NCBI GenBank assembly: GCA_900065925.1
Contig: LN890280.1
Coordinates: 1,542,451 to 1,606,450, forward strand
From: Nitrosotalea devaniterrae
GTDB lineage: Archaea; Thermoproteota; Nitrososphaeria; Nitrososphaerales; Nitrosopumilaceae
Direction: 5' to 3'
Length of the DNA: 64,000 nt
Below are positions 14,041 to 33,720 of this stretch, piece by piece (the stretch's first letter is position 1; each line of letters begins with the position of its first letter). The notes beneath the pieces were generated by a model, which was given only the letters and a program-made list of their open reading frames with translations, was not told the origin of the DNA and ran no database searches. Position numbers and translations under genes: made by a program.

Positions 14041-14134
14041 GCTCCAGTGGTGTAGACCGGTCAAGCATGTGGGACTTTCAATCCTACGACCCGGGTTCAA
14101 ATTCTTTATGATGAAAATCCCGGCTGGAGCACCA
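14041..14134 (+). tRNA. tRNA-Glu(TTC) with a 16-base T-loop intron
   Basis: Acceptor GCTCCAG/CTGGAGC with discriminator A and an encoded CCA at 14132-14134. The anticodon stem TGGGA/TCCTA holds loop CTTTCAA, giving TTC. The T-stem CCGGG/CCCGG is interrupted by 16 extra bases at 14102-14117. They form a textbook bulge-helix-bulge: the T-stem is the outer helix, TTCA pairs with TGAA as the four-base-pair central helix, both bulges read AAT, and TC/GA closes a five-base loop. Cutting after the second base of each bulge restores the T-loop TTCAAAT exactly, placing the intron between positions 59 and 60. Confidence 0.93.
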
Positions 14135-33610: not shown

Positions 33611-33720
33611 TGGCGCCCTTGGCGGGATTTGAACACGCGTCGAGGCCGTGACAGGGCCCCATTCTAGACCGGGCTTTACGAGGATTGGAATTAACCGCAT
33701 CCCCTCTATACTACAAGGGC
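33611..33720 (-). tRNA. tRNA-Asp(GTC) with an intron in the D-arm region
   Basis: The acceptor GCCCTTG/CAAGGGC, discriminator G and encoded CCA (33611-33613) frame a tRNA with anticodon stem GGGCC/GGCCT around loop CTGTCAC. Total length without CCA is 107 bases, about 34 more than expected, and the excess lies between the first half of the D-stem and the anticodon stem. Joining GTATA to GCCCGGTCTAGAATG would give a normal archaeal Asp D-arm; joining AGAGG to TCTAGAATG is an alternative. A GAGG/CCTC pair could be the central helix of the splicing motif. The T-stem GCGTG/CCCGC has one mismatch. Confidence 0.88.

Follow-up and report, generated by a model that had tools for sequence, protein, structure and literature searches.

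The window analysed here, a 64,000-nt stretch of the Nitrosotalea devaniterrae genome, contains what reads as a tRNA-Glu(TTC) gene on the forward strand (14041–14134, discriminator A and CCA included), with a T-loop encoded at 23 nt where 7 is normal. The question raised by this locus is what the additional bases are: an intron that is removed, a chance insertion in a dead gene, or part of an enlarged loop in the mature tRNA. Comparative sequence evidence leads us to favour the first answer, with a probability of roughly 0.94: this is probably the one functional tRNA-Glu(TTC) gene of the host, its T-loop split by a 16-nt archaeal bulge-helix-bulge (BHB) intron that would be cut by a two-subunit-type endonuclease and sealed by an RtcB-type ligase, and that is old and has been lost several times.

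Structure of the gene and its intron

The cloverleaf can be read directly from the sequence, with an acceptor stem of GCTCCAG/CTGGAGC and the anticodon TTC (positions 34–36) at 14077–14079. Exon 1 (positions 1–59) spans 14041–14101 and exon 2 (positions 60–73 plus CCA) spans 14118–14134; the 16-nt insert between positions 59 and 60 lies at 14102–14117. ARAGORN reports nothing on the unspliced stretch and names the spliced one tRNA-Glu(ttc), and taking out the insert leaves the T-loop TTCAAAT. Direct reading and the ARAGORN call on the spliced form thus bear out what a first-pass annotation had proposed for the identity of the gene, the limits of the insert, its 59/60 site and the restoration of a normal T-loop. 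The same annotation called the intron very short, which at 16 nt it is, but this length is ordinary in the family, where introns run from 14 to 20 nt.

The outer helix of the BHB is the T-stem itself, with the 5' strand CCGGG (14091–14095) pairing with the 3' strand CCCGG (14119–14123). The exon bases TTCA (positions 54–57; 14096–14099) pair with TGAA in the intron (14112–14115) to form a central helix of 4 bp. On opposite strands at the two ends of this helix, and at the exon–intron borders, are two 3-nt bulges, both AAT, at 14100–14102 and 14116–14118. Inside them is a hairpin (14103–14111) of two pairs only, TC at 14103–14104 with GA at 14110–14111, around a 5-nt loop. Helix, bulges and inner helix had all been described this way beforehand, and our reading agrees. 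In BHB processing each bulge is cut after its second base; by this rule, cleavage would fall after the second A of the 5' bulge and before the T of the 3' bulge, and the resulting exon 1 border matches intronless relatives with the T-loop TTCAAAT. A group I or group II intron was rejected on size, 16 nt versus a catalytic core of hundreds of bases, and no Rfam intron family matches at the gathering threshold in the 64-kb window.

Detection and copy number

In a search of the whole window, the tRNA-Glu(TTC) gene was missed both by ARAGORN and by Rfam RF00005 at gathering. Genome-wide, RF00005 at gathering returns 40 tRNAs, tRNA-Glu(TTC) not among them; under lax settings Rfam matches it in part, at 13.8 bits. 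A T-arm intron model (R2), whose training rows include the window sequence and several relatives, recovers the gene in the window genome at E 8.3e-10, with the next match at E 0.227, making it the sole T-arm intron of this genome by that model. The expectation that automated finders often miss such genes therefore holds for ARAGORN and Rfam here, but it may not extend to tRNAscan-SE 2.0 as presented in PMC8450103, which includes a dedicated Thaumarchaeota noncanonical-intron model.

Being skipped by two standard searches is also what could be expected if the gene were dead, a relic or pseudogene whose T-loop took up an insertion by chance, in which case another tRNA would read GAA codons. The window genome (G000) is a single contig of 1,805,304 bases and is 99.81% complete. 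A Glu model based on the spliced gene gives two strong matches in it, the TTC gene at 82.9 bits and an intronless Glu-CTC (382470–382544) at 100.2 bits; Gly-TCC and Gln-TTG come next, with 62.5 and 61 bits. A second intact tRNA-Glu(TTC), named in the first-pass annotation as the case that would make this gene a relic, was looked for with this model in G000 and not found. The gene thus shows neither of the marks of a tRNA-Glu pseudogene, a damaged cloverleaf or an intact TTC duplicate. Together with the pairing kept in relatives, described below, this makes a relic very improbable.

Other tRNAs of this genome also deserve mention. A candidate tRNA-Trp (L242; G000:C1:1504230–1504520, +), read by eye, has a large intron with motifs like C and D boxes; tRNA-Trp introns with such motifs occur in other archaea. 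Two further candidates fall under the Rfam cut-off: a tRNA-Arg(CCT) with a D-loop insert (L241; G000:C1:1774460–1774760, +) and a tRNA-Leu(TAA) with inserts (L243; G000:C1:1521380–1521680, −). A tRNA-Asp(GTC) in the window (33614–33720, −), its anticodon read by eye, has an apparent D-arm intron; it is found by Rfam, missed by ARAGORN without introns and named Trp with introns. The published Ca. Nitrosotalea devanaterra genome is given 40 tRNA genes in the part of PMC4836417 that reports them; with Glu(TTC), Trp, Arg(CCT) and Leu(TAA) counted in, the genome would hold at least 44.

Splicing machinery

Two tRNA splicing endonuclease genes are present in the window genome, each with both Pfam domains. 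In the subunit encoded at 707421–707663 (−), the Tyr, His and Lys of A. pernix EndA, which we take to be the catalytic residues, are all conserved in the alignment, and a Lys also aligns with residue 44 of that enzyme, presumably the loop lysine important for broad specificity. In the subunit encoded at 380727–380978 (+) the aligned His is replaced. By alignment, then, one subunit has Tyr, His and Lys and the other is without the catalytic His, as in an (alpha-beta)2 enzyme. As far as these sources treat them, Thaumarchaeota enzymes are described as alpha2beta2 (PMC4090602), and (alpha-beta)2 and epsilon2 endonucleases handle relaxed motifs (PMC4090602, PMC6379350). An RtcB gene is found in the same genome at E 6e-177. 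Since RtcB and endonuclease genes also occur without such an intron, their presence is necessary rather than specific.

These components suggest how the precursor could be processed. The T-stem and the conserved TTCA of the T-loop would pair onward into the intron TGAA, presenting the two 3-nt bulges, each of which a two-subunit-type endonuclease would cut between its second and third base. An RtcB-type ligase would then join the exons to give the normal 7-nt T-loop. The spliced tRNA would be charged, and the oligomeric state of the endonuclease is likewise predicted.

Conservation and loss in relatives

Searching with BLAST gives some match to the gene in 243 of 250 family genomes, many of them partial or to other tRNAs. 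The T-arm intron model, run over a sample of the phylum, finds the intron in 51 of 299 genomes; counting rows by hand, 38 of these are in the family (38 of the 51 family genomes sampled), another 1 comes from the same order and the other 12 are more distant. Leaving aside loci from a motif scan, 51 distinct TTC genes could be read, with 39 distinct intron loops; a spurious 11-nt loop in L081 was discarded. All 39 have the full BHB, with introns of 14–20 nt, and all splice to a 7-nt T-loop (TTCAAAT in 34, TCCAAAT in 5). The motif scan yields at least 119 loci; since by design it picks up only T55 loops with TGAAA, they were kept out of the pair counts. With them added there are 56 distinct loops among the matches listed, all paired. 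The occurrence of the same intron in most relatives examined shows that it is genuine, though its kind is known.

Intronless orthologues serve as natural empty sites, with the T-loop TTCAAAT or TCCAAAT. At 33 further loci with intronless TTC genes, where one genome may stand under several loci, the loop is TTCAAAT in 24, TCCAAAT in 8 and TTCGAAT in 1. These sites bear on whether the insert might instead survive in the mature tRNA and enlarge its T-loop. Folding leaves room for this: the isolated window T-arm comes to −8.6 kcal/mol with the BHB and −8.7 without its central helix, whose mean pair probability is 0.44, so the arm folds equally well either way. In an L061-type relative the central helix is disfavoured (0.07) and the mature loop is still restored. 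Against retention, sister genes are without exactly these bases, the length of the insert varies, and its covarying pairing is the pairing that the endonuclease needs. An enlarged T-loop would also disrupt the contact between D-loop and T-loop. We consider a retained insert scarcely credible and excision of an intron the far better reading.

Synteny can be used to ask how the intron came to be absent from some genomes. Among genomes with both coordinates listed, nuoL is about 2.4 kb away from the tRNA whether the intron is there (for example G222) or not (for example G214, G216, G230, G085, G249). The distance is the same in both states, which points to loss in place rather than replacement of the gene from elsewhere. 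A tree was made from three linked Nuo proteins, a single locus, by a quick, short search; of the 30 genomes requested, G239 went unmatched and G009, G242 and G254 were left out as short or distant, leaving 26. On this tree at least 5 switches between presence and absence of the intron are needed. Within the family the intron is old, has been inherited in place and has been lost several times.

An intron that is spliced may still persist because it has a role itself, for example in determining the order of T-loop modification or of 3'-end processing. Its retention in 38 of 51 sampled family genomes, even though losses are possible, fits this idea. However, it has been lost repeatedly with no visible change in the gene, and constraint is found on the pairing letters only; an own function therefore seems unlikely to us. 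In a separate observation, part of the window's genus (g1) has a rewritten Glu-TTC anticodon stem (window 14070–14090) and a variable loop of 4 bases, not 5.

Covariation and residue 55

A shuffle test was applied to 17 typed T-arms (13 family Glu rows and 4 from other archaea), using 500 shuffles and counting the T-stem pairs as well. Every cell is paired, a share reached by 0/500 shuffles; the covariation score of 0.203 was likewise reached by 0/500, as was the number of cells changed on both sides, 11. Weaker statistics are the number of pairs with change on both sides (3; 32/500) and of further pair types (6; 55/500). The varying pairs in these T-arms are three: the outermost T-stem pair, pair 55 and inner pair 1. 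Across the 39 distinct loops, pair 55 is T-A in 33, C-G in 5 and T-G in 1 (a wobble, in L035), and inner pair 1 is T-A in 37, G-C in 1 and C-G in 1. C55 goes with the intron motif TGGA in genera g3, g16 and g17 (L054, L059, L062, L069, L299). In g16 (17 genomes), C55 is found in 11/11 genomes with a TTC gene read, 3 with the intron and 8 without. Glu-CTC has TTCAAAT in 33/33 genes by script count.

Two views of C55 were rejected. It is not an extraordinary residue, being shared by three (Thr-TGT, Lys-TTT, Gly-GCC) of the 40 tRNAs that Rfam finds in the window genome and by 2 of 30 tRNAs read from G222, both by T-loop script. Nor does it look like one inherited change: C55 genomes are not one clade on the quick, single-locus Nuo tree of 26 genomes, where holding them together is rejected (AU p 2e-5) and at least 4 state changes are needed. 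It is possible, at a little short of even odds in our judgement, that in Nitrosopumilaceae-type archaea pair 55 has moved between U-A and C-G on more than one occasion, with one U-G intermediate, and that C55 has stayed after intron loss in g16, permanently marking the mature tRNA at what is usually a pseudouridine. The intronless Glu-CTC of these genomes keeps U55. Pairing pressure is one possible cause of C55. C55 is tolerated in other tRNAs, so the finding is a modest one. In the open-access literature, we found no publication describing covariation between the intron and position 55, and none on C55 persisting after intron loss; the link of position 55 with the intron, and its survival once the intron is gone, may thus be a modest addition to what is in print.

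Relation to known introns

Noncanonical BHB introns are an established class in Thaumarchaeota, with a model of their own, and the kind of intron described here is therefore already known. The relevant part of PMC8450103 counts 107 noncanonical Thaumarchaeota tRNA introns, on which a separate model was trained; the window intron is like these in phylum, BHB logic and noncanonical position, and may already be in GtRNAdb. Beyond that set as described there, the present data add family-wide conservation, empty sites and exon–intron covariation. T-loop positions are mentioned in a review (PMC6379350), and the T-loop or T-arm BHB introns of other archaea, where covered in PMC6379350 and PMC3293823, are alike in BHB, location and EndA cutting but belong to other lineages and isotypes. 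Sulfolobus tokodaii tRNA-Glu, in the account of PMC4307357, also has a noncanonical BHB intron, with cleavage by recombinant EndA shown; that intron is in the D-arm, whereas the window intron is in the T-loop.

The 59/60 arrangement can also be found outside Nitrososphaerota, at 13 of 119 motif-scan loci among the matches listed, with Arg and Leu tRNAs making up most of these. Since pairing with TGAA is open to any tRNA that carries TTCA, recurrence of the site may come easily. Loci L111–L172 show the arrangement in Arg, Leu, His and other tRNAs of Micrarchaeota, Woesearchaeota, Bathyarchaeota and Hodarchaeota/Heimdallarchaeota records; ARAGORN naming is doubtful for some of the non-Nitrososphaerota loci, and L161 was not named. 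A Bacteroidota-titled (Chitinophagaceae) record with the archaeal motif also stands among the listed loci and probably reflects a contaminated assembly.

Significance

With the tRNA-Glu(TTC) gene, this acidophilic ammonia oxidiser has a complete tRNA set, and the locus explains how annotation can skip an essential gene. Across the family, the data make a clear case of intron retention, in-place loss and exon–intron covariation. They also open the way to testing whether introns can influence which residue a mature tRNA carries.
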